Virus record (IMG/VR): IMGVR_UViG_3300004369_000076
Location: 1 to 31,899 of that record
Direction: 5' to 3' (one strand)
Origin: a virus
Length of the DNA: 31,899 nucleotides
Shown piece after piece: positions 11,061 to 31,899 of the stretch. The notes below the pieces were generated by a model, which worked only from the letters and a program-made list of their open reading frames with translations, made no database searches and was not told where the DNA came from. A program made the position numbers and the translations under genes. Position 1 is the stretch's first letter. Each line of letters opens with the position of its first letter.

Positions 11061-11262
11061 AGTATTCCTCACCCTGAATTGCCAGATCCGCATACTCAAT
11101 TTGATCTTCCGAAAGATTAGCAGTTACCACTTCCAGAACGTTCATAAATTCCTGGACGGTATCGCAATTTACCATCTTTTCATTACCCTCATCGCTCAGG
11201 AGAAGGAAAGAGCGGGTGCAAACGTCGATCACGATGCCTTGGACGCATTCAGTGTTGCTCAT
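11059..11262 (-). CDS. Small conserved-looking protein of unknown function
   Basis: A 67-residue protein, MSNTECVQGIVIDVCTRSFL followed by a short beta-rich core and an acidic C-terminus ending AIQGEEY. No known family is recognised. The frame extends to a GTG at 11283, but that codon lies upstream of the transcription start predicted near 11279, so the ATG at 11262 is chosen. It is the first gene behind a perfect sigma70 promoter, so it is probably expressed early. It appears to share a transcript with the antitoxin-like gene and the tRNAs. Confidence 0.7.
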   Translation of the reverse strand: MSNTECVQGIVIDVCTRSFLLLSDEGNEKMVNCDTVQEFMNVLEVVTANLSEDQIEYADLAIQGEEY

Positions 11263-23756: not shown

Positions 23757-24157
23757 TGCCGAGAAAAACTCTTAAACAGAGAAAAGAAAAATATCCAACA
23801 GAGAACGAAGTTAATCGAATTCGTTCTGTAATGGATAATATTGTTGGTATGGAAGATCCTGATGATGTGATGATGGAACTTATGAGTACCATACCCGAGA
23901 GTGGCAGAGCACCAAGTGCTGGAAAGTATTATGCCTTTGTTTATAATCCCAAGACTCCTAACATAATATATGACCAAAATCCCTTAGTTGCCGTCACTGA
24001 TGTATTCGAATGGGGATTTCGTGGTCTTAATTATCATTGGGGTGAAATGCGCCAATATACTTGGAATGAAATCCCAGGGCAGTTGTATGAAATCTATCCC
24101 GAAGAACTTGCTGATGCTAGAGAACTGCCTTTTATGAAACAGCGTCTAAATAGTTAA
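23756..24157 (+). CDS. Conserved T4-like cyanophage protein of unknown function
   Basis: A 133-residue protein translated with gp4 through a TAATG overlap. The N-terminus is basic (MPRKTLKQRKEKYPTENE). The rest is a compact mixed fold with many aromatic residues: KYYAFVYNPKTPNIIYDQNP, then VFEWGFRGLNYHWGEMRQYT. No catalytic motif, signal peptide or membrane segment is seen. The position between gp4 and gp48 suggests a head or baseplate completion role, but nothing in the sequence proves it. Confidence 0.7.
   Translation: MPRKTLKQRKEKYPTENEVNRIRSVMDNIVGMEDPDDVMMELMSTIPESGRAPSAGKYYAFVYNPKTPNIIYDQNPLVAVTDVFEWGFRGLNYHWGEMRQYTWNEIPGQLYEIYPEELADARELPFMKQRLNS
24146..24152 (+). promoter_or_regulatory. 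T4-late-like motif CTAAATA before gp48
   Basis: CTAAATA inside the last codons of the preceding gene, 19 nt before the gp48 ATG at 24172. Same core as the divergent pair at 23279 and 23312. Confidence 0.45.
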
Positions 24158-24171
24158 AAAAATAGCCAAAA

Positions 24172-25182
24172 ATGGCACGACAAATATTAAGATATCCTAG
24201 GGCAGAACTAAACAAGCAAGACGATTTTCTTCATATTCAGGAATTCGCTTATGTTGCTAGTGGAGTTAAATTCACACGAGGTAGTAGTCAAAAAGTAACC
24301 ACTCCAGATCCAGACGATCCCAGTAAAAGTGTACAAACCAATGTCGGGGTTGGAGGAATAGCTAGCGTAAACCAAATAGATAGAAAAAATAGGAGTACAA
24401 AAACTGGTGGAGATACAATAATATTACCTATACCATCAAATATTCAAGACTCGAATTCTGTCAAGTATACTGAAGGCAATTTGGATGGATTAACTGCTTC
24501 TGTTTTAGGAATAGTTAATTCCGCAGTACAAAATGACACTAAAAATATCTCTGAAGTCATATCCGATTTATTAAAAAACTCCACAACTTTAGGTTTAGAT
24601 CCAGGAACAAAGGAATATTTTCTACGATCTTTGGCAGCACAAGCAGCAAATATTCCTTTCGGTGGAAACTTAACTGCTTCCCAATTATTAGCAAGAACAA
24701 CCGGAAATATCTTAAATCCAAATTTAGAATTACTATTTGATGGAGTAACACTAAGAACTTTTAAATTCTCTTTCAAGTTTACTCCAAGAAATGAACCTGA
24801 AGCAAAAGATGTTAAAAACATTATAAGATCTTTTAAAAAGAACATGCACCCAAATTTTGGTACTACAGGATTTAGTAATAAAGAATCTAGTAACATAAAG
24901 AATCTATACTTATCAACTCCCAGAGTATATCAACTAAGATATATGAGGGGAGACCAACCACATCCTTTCTTAAATAAATTTAAGCAGTGTGCTCTTACAG
25001 ACATGTCTGTAAACTATACTGGTGATGGAACTTATGCAACCTACGGAGATGCTAACGCTACTCCAATTTCTATGGTTATGGATTTATCGTTCAAAGAACT
25101 AGAGCCAATTTATGCTGGTGATTATAGAGAACAAGGTGCTGATGGTTATGATGAAGATTTACACGGAGGAGTAGGATACTAA
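24172..25182 (+). CDS. gp48: Baseplate tail-tube cap protein gp48
   Basis: A 336-residue protein; T4 gp48 has 364. N-terminal RQILRYPRAELNKQDDFLHI and the C-terminal half (LELLFDGVTLRTFKFSFKF, TPRNEPEAKDVKNIIRSFK, TPRVYQLRYMRG, CALTDMSVNYTGDGTYATY, PISMVMDLSFKELEPIY) carry the tube-fold features of gp48. In T4 gp48 sits on the baseplate and with gp54 starts the tail tube. The ends of the tube-fold domain are separated by a helical insert of about 70 residues. It is followed directly by gp53, a baseplate wedge gene. Confidence 0.8.
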   Translation: MARQILRYPRAELNKQDDFLHIQEFAYVASGVKFTRGSSQKVTTPDPDDPSKSVQTNVGVGGIASVNQIDRKNRSTKTGGDTIILPIPSNIQDSNSVKYTEGNLDGLTASVLGIVNSAVQNDTKNISEVISDLLKNSTTLGLDPGTKEYFLRSLAAQAANIPFGGNLTASQLLARTTGNILNPNLELLFDGVTLRTFKFSFKFTPRNEPEAKDVKNIIRSFKKNMHPNFGTTGFSNKESSNIKNLYLSTPRVYQLRYMRGDQPHPFLNKFKQCALTDMSVNYTGDGTYATYGDANATPISMVMDLSFKELEPIYAGDYREQGADGYDEDLHGGVGY

Positions 25183-25183
25183 A

Positions 25184-25834
25184 ATGGGATATTTTAGAGA
25201 ACTTCCAAATATACTTTATCCATCATATCTCTCAGACAAGAATTCATCTCTCAACTACACTGAAGTAAAAAACCTCTTCCGTAGAGTAAAGTTGAGAGAT
25301 GATCTTCAAAATGTTTTTACACTTTTTGATAAGTATCAAATACCAGATGGATCAAGACCTGAATTAGTGGCAGAAGAACTTTATGGTTCTGCAGAATTAG
25401 ATTGGGTTGTTTTAATGACTGCAGGGATTATTAATGTGAGAGATGAATGGCCTCTAAATGATAGAGACCTTTATAATTATTCCCTGAATAAGTATGGTTA
25501 TAGTGATTTAAACACAACTCGTTTTTATGAAACAACGCAAGTTAAAGACTCTAATGATCGTTTAATTCTTCCAGCAGGTAAGGTAGTTGATGGCAACTTC
25601 ACAATTACAAATCCTACCAATCCATTATTAACTTTAAATCCCGTTGTTGGTATTAGCAACTACGAATACGAAGTTCGTAAAAATGATAAGAAGAGAAGTA
25701 TCTATCTTTTAAAACCAAGTTATCTCCAGCAGTTCTTGAATGATATGAGACAGATTATGATTTATGATGAGTCTTCTCAGTATATCAATGAAAAATACAT
25801 TCAAACTGAGAATTTAAACATCACTCTTCCATAA
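25184..25834 (+). CDS. gp53: Baseplate wedge subunit gp53
   Basis: A 216-residue protein; T4 gp53 has 196. The T4 gp53 pattern is visible: YFRELPNILYPSYLSDKN, then EVKNLFRRVKLRDDLQNVFT, FDKYQIPDGSRPELVAEELY, DWVVLMTAGIINVRDEWPL, and a C-terminal YLQQFLNDMRQIMIYDESSQ. In T4, gp53 joins wedges around the hub. Its last 21 nt overlap the end of the opposite-strand Mom-like gene, so the two transcripts converge. Confidence 0.85.
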   Translation: MGYFRELPNILYPSYLSDKNSSLNYTEVKNLFRRVKLRDDLQNVFTLFDKYQIPDGSRPELVAEELYGSAELDWVVLMTAGIINVRDEWPLNDRDLYNYSLNKYGYSDLNTTRFYETTQVKDSNDRLILPAGKVVDGNFTITNPTNPLLTLNPVVGISNYEYEVRKNDKKRSIYLLKPSYLQQFLNDMRQIMIYDESSQYINEKYIQTENLNITLP

Positions 25835-26413
25835 GAGTTCTAGTTTCTTATCAAACATCATAACGTATCGGTGCTTGCGGGAGCGTTCTTTCCATTCTCC
25901 CTCGGCACCTTTTATTTTACCTCTTGAATGCTTGGTGCCATCGGCATAGTAGAAATCTTTTTTAGGGTCTGTGAGACCTGCATATTTAAAGTTACAAGCA
26001 CGATAAATTGTACCAGAATGGTAATCTGAATCAGCATAAGAAATGATTGCTTTAACTTCAGTATCTTTCCGAAGTTGTCTAATCGCTCGTGACACAAACC
26101 AAGAAGTGATGTTATATTCGCATGACTGCGTATCAGGGTGGATGCAAAGTCTTGAGAGTTCGAAGAGTCCTTGTTGTTCATTACGTTCTAATCCAAATGC
26201 TCCTTGTGCGACTTCGGGAACAGGGAGTCCAGTAAAAATACAGACTCCCTTGATACCACCGATATTCAGTGGACTGAAATCATTGCTCTCATACAGACCG
26301 TAGTTGTATCCAGACTTAAAGGACTTCGAAAAGTCCTTAAGATAATGAAACCGCAGAAGTAACTCTGCGGCTTCGGATTTACTTACTCGATCGATGTGGT
26401 AATTAGATTTCAC
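25814..26413 (-). CDS. Mom-like DNA adenine modification protein
   Basis: A 199-residue protein starting with GTG at 26413; no in-frame ATG precedes it and the ribosome-binding site is weak. It has the GNAT-like Mom family features: HYLKDFSKSFKSGYNYGLYE, FELSRLCIHPDTQSCEYN, SWFVSRAIRQLRKDTEVKAI, ISYADSDYHSGTIYRACNF, KYAGLTD and a C-terminal RKHRYVMMFDKKLE. Phage Mu Mom converts adenine to N6-carbamoylmethyl-adenine and blocks restriction. The ISYADSDYHSGTIYRA core is the best match. Its 3' end overlaps gp53 on the other strand. It is a second modification gene besides the methyltransferase ORFs. Confidence 0.75.
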   Translation of the reverse strand: MKSNYHIDRVSKSEAAELLLRFHYLKDFSKSFKSGYNYGLYESNDFSPLNIGGIKGVCIFTGLPVPEVAQGAFGLERNEQQGLFELSRLCIHPDTQSCEYNITSWFVSRAIRQLRKDTEVKAIISYADSDYHSGTIYRACNFKYAGLTDPKKDFYYADGTKHSRGKIKGAEGEWKERSRKHRYVMMFDKKLELLWKSDV

Positions 26414-26435
26414 TTGAACAGTAAGTTAATGTATG

Positions 26436-26461
26436 CTGCCACAACTAAAAGTGTGAGGCAG
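26436..26461 (-). other. Weak hairpin in the 61-nt gap between gp32 and the Mom-like gene
   Basis: On the - strand CTGCC (26457-26461) pairs with GGCAG (26436-26440), with two further CA/TG-type pairs inside. No T run follows, so a terminator is not supported; it may be an RNA stabilising or processing structure after gp32. Confidence 0.25.
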
Positions 26462-26474
26462 ATTTGGTTGTAGT

Positions 26475-27407
26475 TCACTCGTCGGCAAGACGTGCGAAGT
26501 ACGAGAGAGCATCATCATCCTCATCTTCATCAGAGGAAGAGGAAACGGTGCGAGTGGGTTGAAGAGTGTTCAGTTCATCACGGAGATCTTCAGTGAGTTC
26601 ACGGGTAGAACCACGGGTGGTTTCTTCCTCATCAAACTCTTCAGGATCCTGATAGCGGGGAGTGCCCTTGTTACCCAGCACATAGTCCAGGCGCTTCTTC
26701 AGATCATCATAGGACTTGAACTGATCAGCAGCAACAAGTTCAGCAAGAGAATACTGCTTCTTCCACACTGCTTCCATGGCATCATCATCGTCCAGGAGAG
26801 CATCGGGGCGAGCAAACTCGCTGGAGTCGTAGTTACGATAACCAGCAACGTTCTTTGCCTTCAGTTTGAAGTTAGCACCTTGCCAGAAATCGAACGGATC
26901 GATTGCTTCCTCGTCCTCAAACTCAGGTTGCATAGCAGCAGTGAGTTTGTCGAAGATCTTCTTACCGAACTTGAACAGGAACACACGACCTTCATTGGAA
27001 GGATTGGCGGGATCCTTGACCACATAGATGTTTGCCATGTAGGTCAGTTTACGCTTCTGCTTACGTGCCTGCTCTTTACCAGCATCGGTGCCGTTGTTCC
27101 ACAGCATCGTGTTGTACTCAGAAACAGGATCCTTCTGACCAAGAGTAGTCAGGGAGTTCTCAATATACCAACCACCAGGACCTTGGAAGGCGTGACTGTA
27201 GAGTTTCACAAAAGGAAGGTCCTCACCATTAGGAGCGGGGAGGAAACGGATCACGGCATAACCGTTGCCGCTCTTATCACATTCCAGTTTCCACAAGCGA
27301 TCATCGCCGCTGGAACCGCTATTGTTATTCATCTTTTCGACTTCCTTGACCAGTTTCGCGGTCAGGGAGCCAAGCTTAGATTGCTTTTTAAGGTCTGCGA
27401 AAGACAT
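26475..27407 (-). CDS. gp32: Single-stranded DNA-binding protein gp32
   Basis: A 310-residue protein, same size as T4 gp32 (301). The N-terminus is a basic cooperativity arm. The core is clear: SGNGYAVIRFLPAPNGEDLP, FVKLYSHAF, KLTYMANIYVVKDPANPSNE, VFLFKFGKKIFDKL, FDFWQGANFKLKAKNVAGYR. The C-terminus is acidic (SSSSDEDEDDDALSYF). Of the T4 zinc ligands (His64, Cys77, Cys87, Cys90), only the His (His72) is kept: the cysteine positions read Ser85, Asp93-like and Ser96 in ENSLTTLGQKDPVSEYN. It coats ssDNA in replication, recombination and repair and interacts with gp59, encoded next door. Codon use looks more GC-rich than the tail genes, fitting high expression. Confidence 0.92.
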   Translation of the reverse strand: MSFADLKKQSKLGSLTAKLVKEVEKMNNNSGSSGDDRLWKLECDKSGNGYAVIRFLPAPNGEDLPFVKLYSHAFQGPGGWYIENSLTTLGQKDPVSEYNTMLWNNGTDAGKEQARKQKRKLTYMANIYVVKDPANPSNEGRVFLFKFGKKIFDKLTAAMQPEFEDEEAIDPFDFWQGANFKLKAKNVAGYRNYDSSEFARPDALLDDDDAMEAVWKKQYSLAELVAADQFKSYDDLKKRLDYVLGNKGTPRYQDPEEFDEEETTRGSTRELTEDLRDELNTLQPTRTVSSSSDEDEDDDALSYFARLADE

Positions 27408-27409
27408 TT

Positions 27410-27453
27410 GGATTACCTCGGATTGATTTGGATTCGGGGGATTTACTCGGATA
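27410..27453 (-). promoter_or_regulatory. gp32 leader: phased AATCC repeats, candidate autoregulatory operator
   Basis: On the - strand AATCC pentamers end at 27410, 27420, 27430 and 27439, and a near copy (TATCC) at 27449, giving spacings of 10, 10, 9 and 10. They fill the leader between the predicted start (about 27446) and the ATG. The GAGG ribosome-binding site (27416-27419) sits between the last two. T4 gp32 represses its own mRNA by binding a repeated unstructured leader; this could be the equivalent. Confidence 0.5.
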
Positions 27454-27481
27454 GTATAGCAAGGATGCCCTCAGTCGTCAA
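27453..27481 (-). promoter_or_regulatory. Sigma70-type promoter of gp32, TTGACG-N17-TATACT
   Basis: On the - strand TTGACG (27476-27481) and TATACT (27453-27458) are separated by 17 nt, each one mismatch from consensus. The -35 box lies inside the last codons of the DUF1825 gene, and its TGA stop (27471-27473) falls in the spacer. The predicted start is near 27446, leaving a 39-nt leader. Confidence 0.8.
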
Positions 27482-27803
27482 GATATTGCTTGAGGGATTC
27501 GATTGTCTGGTTCATACTATTGAATAAAACTGACATATCAGTCTCTGGTGGGAAACCCATCAGCGCAACTGATTTGCGTAGGTTCTCTTTCATCTCAACC
27601 GCCATTGGGTCGTCTGAAAGGGATAACCTAGTATACATCACTCTCTGCTTTTCTAGCAAGCTTTGGAGTTTCTCAATGTGTTCTAACTTAGTCTCATTAG
27701 ACATTGAACCAAAAGTCAATATACTTCCATAGATTTGTTCTTGGAGTTTATTGATTTCTTTTAGTTCATCCTGAATAATATCAGACTCAAAAAATTCACT
27801 CAT
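27471..27803 (-). CDS. DUF1825-family protein
   Basis: A 110-residue all-helical protein. The layout matches the DUF1825 family known from cyanobacteria and cyanophages: FFESDIIQDELKEINKLQEQ, GSMSNETKLEHIEKLQSLLE, QRVMYTRLSLSDDPMAVEM, ENLRK and a final helix NSMNQTIESLKQYLDD. Function is unknown; family members are small and cytosolic. Its start overlaps the gp59 stop by 8 nt and its end is built into the gp32 promoter, so it is part of the replication cluster. Presence of this cyanobacterial family supports the host inference. Confidence 0.75.
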   Translation of the reverse strand: MSEFFESDIIQDELKEINKLQEQIYGSILTFGSMSNETKLEHIEKLQSLLEKQRVMYTRLSLSDDPMAVEMKENLRKSVALMGFPPETDMSVLFNSMNQTIESLKQYLDD

Positions 27804-28395
27804 CGATTATAGACCGCAAAATTTTCTTGTAGTTGAACACATCAATATTTAGGAATGGAGTATACTTCTTTAATTTTAAACTTACGGTTTCCCACACTGG
27901 GTCCAAAAGTTGCTTGTCAAACTTATTCCCAAACAGGAATATTTTATTGTAAATCACTAGGGTCTCTAGTGAAATTGTCCCGCTCAGGAACTTTTTTAGA
28001 ACGGGTGGATGTCCTTTCGAACAGTCGAAAACACTCTCTAATTCGTTCTCCGAGAACAATTCGTTGCTTTGCTCTTTGAACAAGTAGGTCAAACTCTGCT
28101 GTCGTTTCATCCACTCGGCGTAGTTTCTTTCGCCAGAATTGATAATTTCTCCAATCCATAGGTTCTGTGGGTTATCGGTGGCAGTGAAATTGGATACAAG
28201 AAAATCTACGACTTCCTTATCACTATATTTACGCGAAGTTTTTTCAAACCAATACTTATCCTTCCTCTTATTAAAAGAGGTTACACTTGCACGGGTCTTA
28301 GCACCGTACTTGAAAAAATCATATTTTGGATTAGTAAAATGATTTTTTAGTGAAAGATAATGTTGGTAGGTTTCAAAGGGGCTCACTTTCAGCAT
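27796..28395 (-). CDS. gp59: Helicase loader gp59
   Basis: A 199-residue protein; T4 gp59 has 217. Start MLKVSPFETYQHYLSLKNHF, then YDFFKYGAKTRASVTSFNKR, KYWFEKTSRKYSDKEVVDFL, NPQNLWIGEIINSGERNY, KRQQSLTYLFKEQ and HPPVLKKFLSGTISLETLVI follow the gp59 order closely. In T4 gp59 loads the gp41 helicase onto gp32-coated forks. The gene order gp59 then gp32 is the same as in T4, except that the DUF1825 gene is inserted between them. It overlaps the upstream small gene by 23 nt. Confidence 0.9.
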   Translation of the reverse strand: MLKVSPFETYQHYLSLKNHFTNPKYDFFKYGAKTRASVTSFNKRKDKYWFEKTSRKYSDKEVVDFLVSNFTATDNPQNLWIGEIINSGERNYAEWMKRQQSLTYLFKEQSNELFSENELESVFDCSKGHPPVLKKFLSGTISLETLVIYNKIFLFGNKFDKQLLDPVWETVSLKLKKYTPFLNIDVFNYKKILRSIIDE

Positions 28396-28573
28396 CGACT
28401 AATTCAAGATCTTCAATACAATCAACGGTAACTTCATGCTCGGCAATACGATACCAATGCTTATGTACACCAAGAGTATCCTCGTAAAACCCAAGATACT
28501 CCAAGTCGTCACATTTATTTTCACGCAACCATGCCTGTAGGCGATGATGCATTAATTCATCACGAGAAATCAT
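28373..28573 (-). CDS. Small protein of unknown function
   Basis: A 66-residue protein, MISRDELMHHRLQAWLRENK followed by a beta-rich part GFYEDTLGVHKHWYRIAEHE and an acidic end. No family recognised. It overlaps gp33 at its start (ATGA) and gp59 at its end, so it is translated within the same replication operon. Confidence 0.65.
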   Translation of the reverse strand: MISRDELMHHRLQAWLRENKCDDLEYLGFYEDTLGVHKHWYRIAEHEVTVDCIEDLELVDAESEPL

Positions 28574-28830
28574 AGAGGAAGTTTTGCTCTTGAGGTTCGC
28601 TTCATGAAGTTAAGACGGGTAGCGTCCCACTTCAACCTTTCTTTCAAAGGTTTTGAAACGAGTTTCGTAACAGATTCTACCTCAAGATTATTGATCTCGC
28701 AATAGTGGACAATTGCGTCAATATAATTAAGGTTTTCTTCTGCTACGATTTTTTCGATTTCTAGTGCAAATTTAGAAGGTGTCAAAAATTTACTTTCTAT
28801 CGCTTGTTCTAGTTCCTTATTTGGTTCCAT
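28570..28830 (-). CDS. gp33: Late-promoter coactivator gp33
   Basis: An 86-residue protein from the ATG at 28828-28830, which has GGAACT upstream; the longer frame to 28935 would overlap the exonuclease gene by more than 100 nt and is rejected. The gp33 core KFALEIEKIVAEENLNYIDA, IVHYCEINNLEVESVTKLV and SKPLKERLKWDATRLNF matches the T4 protein (112 residues) in the middle helix and C-terminal part. In T4, gp33 and the gp55 sigma factor bridge RNA polymerase to the sliding clamp for late transcription. Late-like motifs across this window fit its presence. Confidence 0.7.
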   Translation of the reverse strand: MEPNKELEQAIESKFLTPSKFALEIEKIVAEENLNYIDAIVHYCEINNLEVESVTKLVSKPLKERLKWDATRLNFMKRTSRAKLPL

Positions 28831-29497
28831 AGAGTTCCAGTTTATCTCTAACAAACTTTCTAACGTATTCGGTGAGAAGTTTGATGTACTTTGATTTGTC
28901 TCGTTCTTCATAGACGACGCATTCTCCATTTTCACATGCCATGATAATTACAAGTTTTTTGACTGAAATACCAGTCAGTTCATACAACATACAACCGTAT
29001 GCCATACATTGTACAAAGTAGTGTTCGATCCACTCTCGTGGTTTGGGTTTTTTAGAAGTTTTAAAATCGATTATCGCTAACTCGCCGTCGTATTCGGCAA
29101 TACAGTCAACGGTCCCAGCAATGCCTAGTTGCTTACTATATAGGGACCCTTCTAAAGCGTAAATATTATTTATACGTTTTAGATCTGTTTTTGCGATCTT
29201 GAATAAGAAATCTGACATTGGTTGAACCTTTGGTAGTTCCTCATTCTTGAGGTGGTGTTCTACCAAGGTATGCATATCTGTACCACGACTTGTTGCTTTT
29301 TTCGTGATACGTTCTGCTTCTTCTTCACCAACTTTTTTTCTCCAGTTAATGAAGATCTCCTTATTAAAATGACTGGTCACCGAAGTAATCGAGACCAGTC
29401 GGAGAAGTTCTTCATCATCAGGAACTTTATAGTACCTTACCCCATCAATAGTCTCCCTCTCAAGTTGAGGGAGATCAATATCAACATGATTGAACAT
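28817..29497 (-). CDS. RecB-like PD-(D/E)xK exonuclease
   Basis: A 226-residue protein. Nuclease motifs in order: RGTDMH (71-76), YALEGSLYSKQLGIAGTVDC (E116, D131), LAIIDFKTSK (D144, K146) and QCMAYG (163-168). This is the Cas4/RecB-type arrangement, with Asp131, Asp144 and Lys146 as the metal site and the QxxxY motif after it. There are no clustered cysteines as in Cas4 iron-sulphur proteins. In a T4-like phage it could degrade host DNA or process recombination ends. It overlaps PhoH by 1 nt and gp33 by 14 nt. Confidence 0.85.
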   Translation of the reverse strand: MFNHVDIDLPQLERETIDGVRYYKVPDDEELLRLVSITSVTSHFNKEIFINWRKKVGEEEAERITKKATSRGTDMHTLVEHHLKNEELPKVQPMSDFLFKIAKTDLKRINNIYALEGSLYSKQLGIAGTVDCIAEYDGELAIIDFKTSKKPKPREWIEHYFVQCMAYGCMLYELTGISVKKLVIIMACENGECVVYEERDKSKYIKLLTEYVRKFVRDKLELYGTK

Positions 29498-30255
29498 TAA
29501 AAACCTGCTTCCATTTTTGCAATAATGTATTCTTTAACGAGTCCAGAACGTACAATGTCATCTACACCAAATTCAATTAGATCAAAGGATGGCATTTTAC
29601 GCAGAATATTCATAAAATCATGAATACCATTACGCTCGTTTGACTTCTGCAAATCAGACTGAACAGCATCACCGCAGAAGCAAATTTTGGTATTTTCACC
29701 AACACGAGTAATTATACTATCTAATTCATGAAAATTCAAGTTTTGATATTCATCAACGATAACAATAGCGTTATCTAAGGTAGTACCACGAAGGAACGAA
29801 GTAGACCAGAACTTGATAGTTTCTTGAGACTTGAGATTACCATAGAGCATCTCAAAGTCAGCATCACTAGGCATCTGGAACATATACTTCACCATATTCT
29901 TATATGGAATTTGGTAGATGTCTGCCTTATCTTCATGGGATCCAGGGAGGAAACCAATCTCTCTGGTTGCTACAAGCGAGCGTACAAGGTAGATACGCTC
30001 ATAAGGTGTAGTTTCATCCAACACATCTTGAAGTGCGTTGTAGAGCGTAATAAAGGTCTTACCAGTACCAGCACAACCATAAGCAACAATGTGCTTACCA
30101 TCTCTATATGACTCAAACAGAGTTTTTTGATTTTCTGTGAGTGGTTCAATATCGACCAAATAATCAGCATTGAGAGGTTTCTTCCTCTTCATCTGCTTTG
30201 CCGTGAGTCCAACCCCGATAGGTTGCTCTGCAGATGATCTTTTTCTTCTTGCCAT
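29497..30255 (-). CDS. phoH: PhoH-like P-loop ATPase
   Basis: A 252-residue protein. A basic N-terminus (RRKRSSAEQP, KRKKPL) precedes a PhoH core: PLTENQKTLFESYRDG, Walker A AYGCAGTGKTF (about 58-68), YLVRSLVATREIGFLPGSHE, KFWSTSFLRGTTLDNAIVIV, DEYQN (Walker B region) and FCGDAVQSDL. PhoH is an ATPase of uncertain target that is widespread in marine phages and often linked to phosphate stress, though its role in infection is not settled. Stop/start overlaps (TAATG) join it to both neighbours. Confidence 0.92.
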   Translation of the reverse strand: MARRKRSSAEQPIGVGLTAKQMKRKKPLNADYLVDIEPLTENQKTLFESYRDGKHIVAYGCAGTGKTFITLYNALQDVLDETTPYERIYLVRSLVATREIGFLPGSHEDKADIYQIPYKNMVKYMFQMPSDADFEMLYGNLKSQETIKFWSTSFLRGTTLDNAIVIVDEYQNLNFHELDSIITRVGENTKICFCGDAVQSDLQKSNERNGIHDFMNILRKMPSFDLIEFGVDDIVRSGLVKEYIIAKMEAGF

Positions 30256-30503
30256 TAGATTTTCTTTACTCTAGAACGAGGTGCTTTTGCTGCTTTACCT
30301 AGGACATCATTCCAACCAGGATTTTTAGCGATGAGTTTGTCTCGCCACTCTCCAACTTCCCCAGGTTGTGGACAGGTTGATGGATCCGACCAATCCCGTT
30401 GCCAATCGGGATTGTCTTTACACCATTGAGACCAGTCGTGAACACTCATTACCACTTCTTTTTGTTCACCAGTCTCTTTGTGAATAACAGGATAAGTCGC
30501 CAT
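30255..30503 (-). CDS. Small protein resembling FmdB-like proteins without zinc cysteines
   Basis: An 82-residue protein, MATYPVIHKETGEQKEVVMS followed by VHDWSQWCKDNPDWQRDWSD and a C-terminal basic end KAAKAPRSRVKKI. The N-terminal 30 residues look like the start of FmdB-type zinc ribbons (MPTYxxxCxxxGexxe), but the CxxC pairs are absent. It is tied to phoH by a TAATG overlap and has a late-promoter-like site 21 nt upstream. Function unknown. Confidence 0.65.
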   Translation of the reverse strand: MATYPVIHKETGEQKEVVMSVHDWSQWCKDNPDWQRDWSDPSTCPQPGEVGEWRDKLIAKNPGWNDVLGKAAKAPRSRVKKI

Positions 30504-30523
30504 AGTTACAAATTCAAGATGAT

Positions 30524-30531
30524 TTATTTAG
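30524..30531 (-). promoter_or_regulatory. T4-late-like motif CTAAATAA after thyX
   Basis: CTAAATAA on the - strand, 21 nt before the ATG at 30503. The thyX stop TAA (30528-30530) is inside it. It would give the phoH-exonuclease-gp33-gp59 group a second, late promoter besides the sigma70 promoter further upstream. Confidence 0.45.
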
Positions 30532-31163
30532 ACCCACTCCAGTGCTTCTGCAACTGTAGGGAACTGCTCTGAGAAGATCTTCTTACATGCTTCTGCGATC
30601 TCCATGTGCTCCTTCTGGGTGCCATTAGCAGAGCGCAGTTGAATGTAGTGGATCCAAGAACGGCAGGAACCACTCATATAAAGACGAGTAGGAGTTGCCA
30701 GAGGAAGCACAAAGCGAGCACATTCCTTTGCCACACCATTATCAAGCAGATGCTGATACAGACTCATACCTTGAGCAAAGTAAGTTTCAATCTGCTTGTT
30801 AGATAATGCTACAAACTCAGGATCCAGGTCGTCAATAGAATTCTGGCGATTCTTGGTGTCTTGACGGCGAAGTTCGGGGACTGGGATCGTCTCTGCGAGT
30901 AGGGAAGAATCAGCATAGCGTTGGGAAAACTCTTGATATGTGAAACTACGGTGACGCAAGATCTGAGCCGCCAGACCACGGGTGGTTTCGATTTCCAGAG
31001 TCATGAAACTCTGTTCAAACACAGACCAGTGGTTGTGCTTGATACAATAACCCAACAACTTGGCATAGTTGGGGTTTTCCTGATTGTTTGGGTTTGAGAC
31101 ACGGGCAACATATGCCATTGTCTGTTCTGCATCAGGGGTTACACTAACCAGTTTTACGCTCAT
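30528..31163 (-). CDS. thyX: Flavin-dependent thymidylate synthase ThyX
   Basis: A 211-residue protein with the ThyX signature [14 protein letters not shown] at residues 70-83 (family pattern RHRxxSxNExSxRY). Further family segments are [32 protein letters not shown] and [19 protein letters not shown]. ThyX methylates dUMP to dTMP with a flavin cofactor and methylene-tetrahydrofolate, supplying dTTP for phage DNA. It is preceded by a 54-residue coiled-coil protein whose TGA overlaps the thyX ATG (ATGA). Confidence 0.95.
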
Positions 31164-31324
31164 TTACCAAATCCTTTTGATGTTTTCTTTTCGATTTCTG
31201 CGAGTTGCTCTTTCAACTCCTTGAGTTGTGCTTTCATCTCTATGATCTTTTCTTCAGTGTAGAGATGATCTTGCTTGATTAAACGCTCAAGCAACTTGAT
31301 AAGTCTTTTAGATCTACTAACCAT
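31160..31324 (-). CDS. Small coiled-coil protein upstream of thyX
   Basis: A 54-residue basic protein, [20 protein letters not shown] followed by a continuous heptad-like helix [20 protein letters not shown] and a short end KTSKGFGK. It should form a short coiled coil. It overlaps thyX by 4 nt (ATGA) and the upstream gene by 1 nt (TAATG), so translation is coupled. No family or function is recognised. Confidence 0.6.
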
Positions 31325-31488
31325 TAGTCTGGGTATCCATCATCGTCATCAAAGATTTCATCATAATCATGAAGTGTCTGGTCTTTAAACTCTAAGTAAC
31401 TTTGAGTATCAGAGTATATTTCTGCTTTGAGAGAATCAACCAACAGTTCAAGATTACGGACGATGAGTTTTAATTTGTCTTTGTCCAT
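31324..31488 (-). CDS. Small acidic protein, first gene of the thyX unit
   Basis: A 54-residue protein, MDKDKLKLIVRNLELLVDSL followed by KAEIYSDTQSYLEFKDQTLH and a very acidic end (DEIFDDDDGYPD). The predicted transcription start near 31503 leaves a leader of about 15 nt. It begins the ladder of overlapping genes towards thyX. Function is unknown. Confidence 0.6.
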   Translation of the reverse strand: MDKDKLKLIVRNLELLVDSLKAEIYSDTQSYLEFKDQTLHDYDEIFDDDDGYPD

Positions 31489-31509
31489 AAGATACTATTC
31501 TCTCAACTC

Positions 31510-31538
31510 ATTTTACACAAAAAAAGAGGGGGTGTCAA
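31510..31538 (-). promoter_or_regulatory. Sigma70-type promoter with -35 box in a terminator loop
   Basis: On the - strand TTGACA (31533-31538), a 17-nt spacer and TAAAAT (31510-31515, five of six to consensus). The -35 box fills most of the loop of the terminator hairpin at 31526-31546, and the spacer holds the hairpin's 3' arm and T tract. The TGA at 31535-31537 inside the -35 box is the stop of the upstream 51-residue ORF. It should drive the unit running to thyX and possibly on to phoH and gp59. Confidence 0.8.
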
Positions 31539-31546
31539 TCCCCCTC
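31519..31546 (-). terminator. Strong intrinsic terminator
   Basis: On the - strand GAGGGGG (31540-31546) pairs with CCCCCTC (31526-31532) around a 7-nt loop, followed directly by seven T (31519-31525). This textbook rho-independent terminator closes the micro-ORF transcript, and its loop contains that transcript's stop codon and the next promoter's -35 box. Confidence 0.9.
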
Positions 31547-31690
31547 AAATCTTAGAATTTTTTCAAACCATTCGTCCAGATGGACTAGGTAACATGACCA
31601 ATAGTTGCAACCTCTATAAGTTAACTGATAACAGGCAGGTGGTCTGTTATCTTTATCCATATCATCATAATGATATGTGTAATTTTGCAT
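31535..31690 (-). CDS. Micro-ORF with aromatic and cysteine residues
   Basis: A 51-residue protein, MQNYTYHYDDMDKDNRPPAC followed by YQLTYRGCNYWSCYLVHLDE and WFEKILRFEGD. Three cysteines and a high Tyr/Trp content suggest a compact fold, perhaps metal-bound. The start overlaps the preceding stop (TAATG). The stop codon lies inside the terminator loop. No known family. Confidence 0.55.
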   Translation of the reverse strand: MQNYTYHYDDMDKDNRPPACYQLTYRGCNYWSCYLVHLDEWFEKILRFEGD

Positions 31691-31776
31691 TACTTACTCA
31701 GCAATAGTACTTCGGCATAAATCAGAAGCATAAATGCAGTCGAACCTAAAACGATTCCACTGATTAAACCAATCAC
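31690..31776 (-). CDS. Single-span membrane micro-peptide
   Basis: A 28-residue peptide starting with GTG at 31776 (overlapping the previous TGA as GTGA). Nearly its whole length is one hydrophobic helix: IGLISGIVLGSTAFMLLIYA, then EVLLLSK. It would insert as a single transmembrane segment. Coupled overlaps on both sides argue that it is translated. A holin-like, antiholin-like or membrane-modifying role is possible but unproven. Confidence 0.5.
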   Translation of the reverse strand: MIGLISGIVLGSTAFMLLIYAEVLLLSK

Positions 31777-31883
31777 TTTTTACCTACCTGGCAGTGCCCT
31801 GCCATGCAGAGAACTGCTTTATGACGCTTCTCTTCTTTTTGCTTCTGCTCTTTAATGAGTTGAAGGAAATTGAGTTTCTGCAT
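31773..31883 (-). CDS. Basic micro-ORF with strong ribosome-binding site
   Basis: A 36-residue peptide, MQKLNFLQLIKEQKQKEEKR followed by HKAVLCMAGHCQVGKK. AGGAGG lies 7 nt before the ATG at 31883, the best Shine-Dalgarno in this end of the window, so translation is likely. It is highly basic and helical, with two cysteines near the C-terminus. Function unknown. Confidence 0.55.
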   Translation of the reverse strand: MQKLNFLQLIKEQKQKEEKRHKAVLCMAGHCQVGKK

Positions 31884-31899
31884 CACTTGTCCTCCTTGA
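31883..31899 (-). CDS. Last codons of a gene running in from outside the window
   Basis: The frame (K)-E-D-K-stop ends with TGA at 31883-31885, sharing the first base of the next ATG (TGATG). Only four codons are visible, so nothing can be said of its function. Confidence 0.35.

Follow-up and report, generated by a model that had tools for sequence, protein, structure and literature searches.

RNA polymerase of E. coli stays on the DNA after termination at a hairpin and restarts at nearby promoters in vitro, and close terminator-promoter pairs in bacterial genomes have been used to explain this recycling of polymerase (PMC6978380, PMC11347151). Immediate restart in vivo after intrinsic termination is regarded as plausible, not yet demonstrated (PMC11347151). 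The bacterial pairs consist of separate sites, mostly within ~1000 bp (PMC11347151, PMC6978380). Here we describe an element in the virus-classed record IMGVR_UViG_3300004369_000076, whose 31,899 bases are referred to below as the window; it resembles these pairs in that a promoter adjoins a terminator, but differs from them in that the two signals share bases. Like an intrinsic terminator, it closes a short-ORF unit with a G+C-rich hairpin and then U7, and its stem covaries among relatives, whereas its loop holds a conserved -35 hexamer and a -10 hexamer follows its T tract. Like a sigma70-type promoter, it reads TTGACA-17-TAAAAT (an 11/12 match, the best within 24000-31899) with a predicted start, at 31503, lying 15 nt before the ATG at 31488, yet its -35 and spacer form part of a terminator hairpin. 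Some of the cyanophage promoters of the form ACTGGCAC - 30 nt - TATAAT likewise have a hairpin and a T run before the -10, but these promoters possess a separate upstream box, in contrast to the element of the window. A search of full-text, open-licence literature returned no description of such fusions, or of their recurrent use as a module, in cyanophages, and within that literature we judge the element to combine two signals that are ordinary in themselves, in a merger that one phage group employs repeatedly.

The 37-bp element and its gene setting

The window carries T4-like structural, replication and late-regulator genes, and its top matches are Synechococcus phages, which belong to Kyanoviridae in those looked up. 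The element lies on the minus strand between a short ORF and a tightly packed run of genes that includes thyX (Table 1). Its layout agrees with the first-pass annotation, which had described a GC hairpin with a T7 tail, TTGACA in the loop, TAAAAT at a distance of 17 nt and the TGA of the upstream ORF within the loop. The distal part of the run encodes a phrog_385 transcriptional regulator, phoH, an exonuclease, a gp33-type late promoter regulator, a helicase loader and a single-strand DNA binding protein, all of which would share one transcript with the fused promoter. Elsewhere on the same strand, an ORF at 25814-26413, located between the replication and structural genes, resembles the Mom-like DNA modification protein family, with weaker matches to HNH/homing endonucleases.

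Table 1. Positions of the element, its component signals and the neighbouring genes in the window
Feature	Position	Strand	Remarks
Whole fused terminator/promoter element, 37 bp	31510..31546	-	GAGGGGG-ATTGACA-CCCCCTC-TTTTTTT-GTG-TAAAAT
Terminator hairpin, 7 pairs, 7-nt loop ATTGACA	31526..31546	-	Fold; stem covariation in relatives
Stem arms GAGGGGG / CCCCCTC	31546-31540 / 31532-31526	-	
T7 tract, also within promoter spacer	31519..31525	-	Relatives have T runs at this position
-35 hexamer TTGACA, in hairpin loop	31533..31538	-	TTGA[CT] in most relatives with a fused -10
-10 hexamer TAAAAT, 17-nt spacer from -35	31510..31515	-	
Predicted transcription start, ~7 nt beyond -10	31503	-	Inferred from promoter geometry
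Upstream ORF, 51 aa	31535..31690	-	TGA at 31537-31535 in loop; EGD codons form 5' stem arm
Downstream unit, gene 1, 54 aa, phrog_878	31324..31488	-	Predicted ORF of no assigned role
Downstream unit, gene 2, 54 aa	31160..31324	-	
thyX	30528..31163	-	Pfam Thy1, E 1e-47
Rest of tightly packed same-strand run	26475..30503	-	

Folded in isolation, the hairpin has a free energy of -12.8 kcal/mol (z -3.7), a stability equalled by none of 200 shuffled sequences; in a longer context its z-score is -1.9. The window has a single TTGACA promoter whose -35 falls within a terminator hairpin, and 100 Markov-simulated windows had none. Extending the count to ten whole cyanophage genomes (1.9 Mb), we found seven strict fusions with TTGA[CT], as against 0-1 in each of five simulations and 0-1 for each of 12 control words put in place of TTGA[CT], although the Fisher test on these ten genomes alone is modest (p 0.009). 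None of the Rfam 15 covariance models matched at the element. As expected of an intrinsic terminator, a G+C-rich hairpin directly precedes a U run and compensatory stem changes occur in relatives; as expected of a sigma70-type promoter, near-consensus hexamers lie within the 16-18 nt spacing and both are conserved in relatives while their surroundings vary. We consider it highly likely that this one 37-bp sequence is both the intrinsic terminator of the upstream unit and the sigma70-type promoter of the thyX/late-regulator/replication unit.

Relatives of the flanking genes

The merging of terminator and promoter in one element, which was the core of the first-pass annotation, gains strong support from the comparison of related sequences. 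A search with the protein of the first 54-aa gene reached 80 viral contigs, most of which have the same arrangement before the gene, with varied stems. In a pooled set of loci, which is partly selected because it came in part from a pattern demanding one stem type and a -10, the 139 distinct upstream regions of this family contained a promoter in 125 cases, a hairpin in 128 and a -35 inside the hairpin in 117, with the fusions comprising 76 distinct elements and 49 different 5' arms. The promoter spacing was exactly 17 nt in 117/125 of the pooled regions, under a scoring that gives this spacing a half-point advantage. Restricting the count to regions picked by protein gives fusions in 40 of 56 distinct regions and 28 different arms among them; the sequences compared here and below are kin, so that counts are not independent trials and p-values overstate independence. 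Arm length, T run and the number of bases after the T run each vary singly while their sum stays constant, a pattern that fits the need of a promoter and not that of a terminator.

The stem itself behaves differently from the loop. In an ungapped alignment of 29 elements in one register, seven of the eight pairs had changed on both sides and 97.4% of cells were paired; the covariation score of 0.776 compares with 0.284 for shuffled alignments (0/500 as high) and with at most 0.34 when the register was slid, and the loop letters TTG were invariant. A covarying stem around an invariant loop word indicates that selection acts on pairing in the stem and on sequence in the loop. At the level of sequence, then, comparison shows that stem pairing is constrained, that the loop word is retained together with the -10 and that the spacing stays at 17 nt. 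Four loci (L045, L060, L075 and L083) have the promoter with a weak or absent hairpin, and three of them (L045, L060 and L075) keep TTGACA-17-TAAAAT beside a weak one, which suggests that the terminator is dispensable in some lineages. The survival of the promoter at these four loci would also be expected if the element were a plain promoter whose hairpin, spanning the -35 and spacer, has a role in DNA or RNA unrelated to termination, such as that of a palindrome bound by a protein. However, the 49 arms and the wide variation of the stems are unlike a protein site, a run of T6-8 follows them, a hairpin placed upstream of the start would be absent from the new transcript, and the hairpin persists without a promoter after the 51-aa gene; we regard this reading as most improbable. 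The data are best described as a stop-and-start fusion, which is very probably present in this cyanophage and kept by many relatives while most other letters of the hairpin change.

In a separate search with the 51-aa gene, the stop codon was found inside the terminator loop in 73 of 76 distinct gene ends. Among these homologues, a -10 after the T run goes together with TGA as the loop stop in 51/51 cases, versus 8 TGA, 10 TAA and 4 TAG in those without a -10 (Fisher 9e-10 for the association of stop type with the -10, and 6e-8 once near-identical sequences were collapsed). With regard to a check named in the first-pass annotation, whether relatives keep the hairpin but drop TTGACA, the loop TGA proved to be lost only where the -10 was also absent. 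Thus L087, with a coding tail near-identical to that of the window, has the loop TTAACA in place of TTGACA and is without a -10, and in L152 the loop stop is TAG while a separate TTGCCA-17-TAGAAT lies further downstream, ahead of a 54-aa-like gene. Relatives lacking the loop TGA after the 51-aa gene have either a different downstream sequence or, as in L152, a separate promoter further on. Because fused, unfused and promoter-only relatives all occur, terminator and promoter are, as judged from these alignments, separable parts that are usually merged here. We also observed, past the terminator of L087 (204-236) and of other unfused 51-aa loci, a GTATAAAC..GTAGGCATAAATTTTT stretch that is conserved and similar to late promoters of the T4 type, followed by a possible separate CTGACA-17-TAGAAT.

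The position of the stop codon raises the further question of whether translation acts on the element. A ribosome at the loop stop would cover the stem. The first-pass annotation had proposed that it could thereby open the hairpin and couple translation to read-through. On such a reading a translation-coupled attenuator would act on top of the fusion, ribosomes at the loop TGA blocking the hairpin and permitting transcription into the thyX unit; the stop in the loop, both in the window and in the 73 of 76 gene tails, is what such a device would have. Fusions elsewhere mostly end no ORF, however: in the pooled set, 58 of the 108 whose -35 contains TGA close no ORF of at least 25 aa, and in the protein-picked subset only 8/32 end one and 24/32 do not. 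The fold offers no alternative antiterminator pairing, and the geometry is kept with or without an ORF. Since about half of the fusions end no ORF, the stop codon does not belong to the conserved module, and with promoterless relatives keeping a TAA, TAG or TGA in the loop, coupling is unsupported as a conserved function. From the gene ends compared, the stop in the loop is a property of the end of the 51-aa gene, whether a promoter is present or absent. Ribosome coupling in this one phage is possible, and we rate an attenuator on top of the fusion as unlikely.

Occurrence in other phages and in cellular genomes

Fusions are also present at other cyanophage loci, for example in MS29 (675 and 2192), S-SRM01 (13403), S-PM2 (124302), S-RIM32 (170568) and P-SSM2 (142791), and in the IMG/VR record G001 (155452). 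When viral contigs were scanned blind to the loop for terminators of the form GAGGG-N11-CCCTC-T7, 86 distinct sequences were obtained; among these, a -10 directly followed the T run in 21 of the 23 with a TTGA[CT] loop vs. 15 of the 63 without (p 1.5e-8); several of the latter 15 carry TTTACA, which is likewise -35-like. These numbers bear on the possibility that the element is a plain terminator, its TTGA coming from the upstream stop codon or from a loop that suits the hairpin and its -10 being a chance product of AT-rich sequence. That the upstream ORF of the window ends in the loop, that promoterless homologues end there too and that S-RIM32 has a TTGA loop without a -10 are all in keeping with such a terminator. 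It would leave unexplained, however, the association of the TTGA[CT] loop with the -10 in a loop-blind sample, the 0-1 counts of the 12 control words, the confinement of TAA and TAG to ends without a -10, the spacing held at 17 and the fact that more than half of the fusions end no ORF. Keeping both sides in mind, we find a plain terminator very improbable and retain the fusion.

A second fusion pattern yielded at least 54 distinct elements in viral contigs. Among the matches listed, 51/54 have perfect stems of at least seven pairs, although the pattern demanded only three, and they precede about 10-11 clusters of first ORFs, including hli, glutaredoxin and exonuclease-like ones. Two fusion patterns, both common in viral contigs, were all but absent from 84,980 bacterial and archaeal genomes, with 0 and 1 matches there; the lone match (L631 7247-7280) sits in a metagenome bin of Anaerolineales, on a contig of 10.3 kb, and may be phage DNA. 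Scans of T4, T5 and RB49 detected no fusion at 10/12 or better, and the same scan of cyanophage Syn19 detected one with TTGACA in the loop. A proposed parallel with overlapping terminators and promoters in T5 was dropped, the T5 scan being without a fusion at 10/12 or better, as was an early pattern scan of all viral contigs, which returned mostly non-hairpin matches and only ~7/80 clear fusions. In the ten cyanophage genomes, 68 of 149 terminators have a 5/6 match to the -10 that starts no more than 18 nt after the hairpin. Many terminators of these genomes have a TATAAT-like -10 directly behind the T run although their loop is not -35-like, a point that weighs against the fusion reading.

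Proposed working of the fusion

The terminator loop carries the -35, the 17-nt spacer takes up the 3' arm together with the T tract, and the -10 comes directly after that tract, so that the same letters would serve in two forms. As RNA, the hairpin and U tract would release, in the T tract, the host RNA polymerase finishing the upstream short-ORF unit; as duplex DNA, the same bases would bind a new sigma70 holoenzyme, presumably with the housekeeping sigma factor of the host, and transcription would start near 31503, ~16 bp beyond the release point. Termination and initiation at these sites are what we infer from the arrangement. Loop letters are nearly free for a terminator, so that a -35 placed there is cheap, and spacer letters are nearly free for a promoter, so that the T tract is cheap as well; with both costs small, the fusion is a cheap way to abut two units, the gain probably being the insulation of consecutive units in minimal space. 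A polymerase paused in the T tract and one bound at the promoter would have to exclude each other.

It is also conceivable that a released polymerase would be captured at once by the adjacent promoter. On this proposal the fusion was selected because polymerase stays on the DNA once its RNA is released and is captured at the -10 a short way on, a view we hold only tentatively; to the same limited degree, the start frequency of the second unit would be expected to follow the traffic of the first. The restart of E. coli polymerase nearby after hairpin termination in vitro (PMC6978380, PMC11347151) favours it, with the distance being minimal here; against this, the supporting data come from E. 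coli and not from cyanobacteria, compactness alone accounts for the overlap, and a polymerase that pauses on the T tract would lie over the promoter and might just as well hinder it. There is accordingly some chance, in our estimate a small one, that fused cassettes of cyanophages are relays in which consecutive units are insulated in RNA and coupled in polymerase traffic. Polymerase capture and ribosome-dependent attenuation would each be added to the fusion and would not replace it, and our likelihoods for them do not add up to a whole with that of the fusion.

The fusion shows how compact phage genomes may separate and start consecutive units with almost no non-coding DNA, an economy that here reaches a single shared stretch for stop codon, terminator and promoter. 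The fusion may further serve as a sequence signature for unit boundaries in unannotated marine phage contigs, and the availability of natural variants (fused, unfused, promoter only and terminator only) makes the module a ready test bed for restart in vivo.

Alongside the fusions, a second class of cyanophage promoters was noted, with a partly palindromic box, roughly GACAnTTnnnnACTGGCAC, and TATAAT 30 nt later. The distance from box to TATAAT is 30 nt in 24 cases, 31 in 8 and 29 in 5, with ~1-4 at other distances. These promoters, found at loci L291-L388 in S-SRM01, P-SSM2, S-PM2, S-CRM01, G001, Syn9, MS29 and others, are often followed by GTAATCAA and a start codon, and some have a hairpin in the spacer; by its form, the box looks like the activator site of a separate promoter class. 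A search of the window for the box of the ACTGGCAC class found none. Within the structural gene region of the window, a 12/12 match to the promoter consensus, TTGACA-17-TATAAT, lies at 11314-11286 of the minus strand; after it come ATGTGGGTAATCAAC and an ATG, the start codon being at 11261, and the downstream part of this promoter is similar to the ACTGGCAC class.
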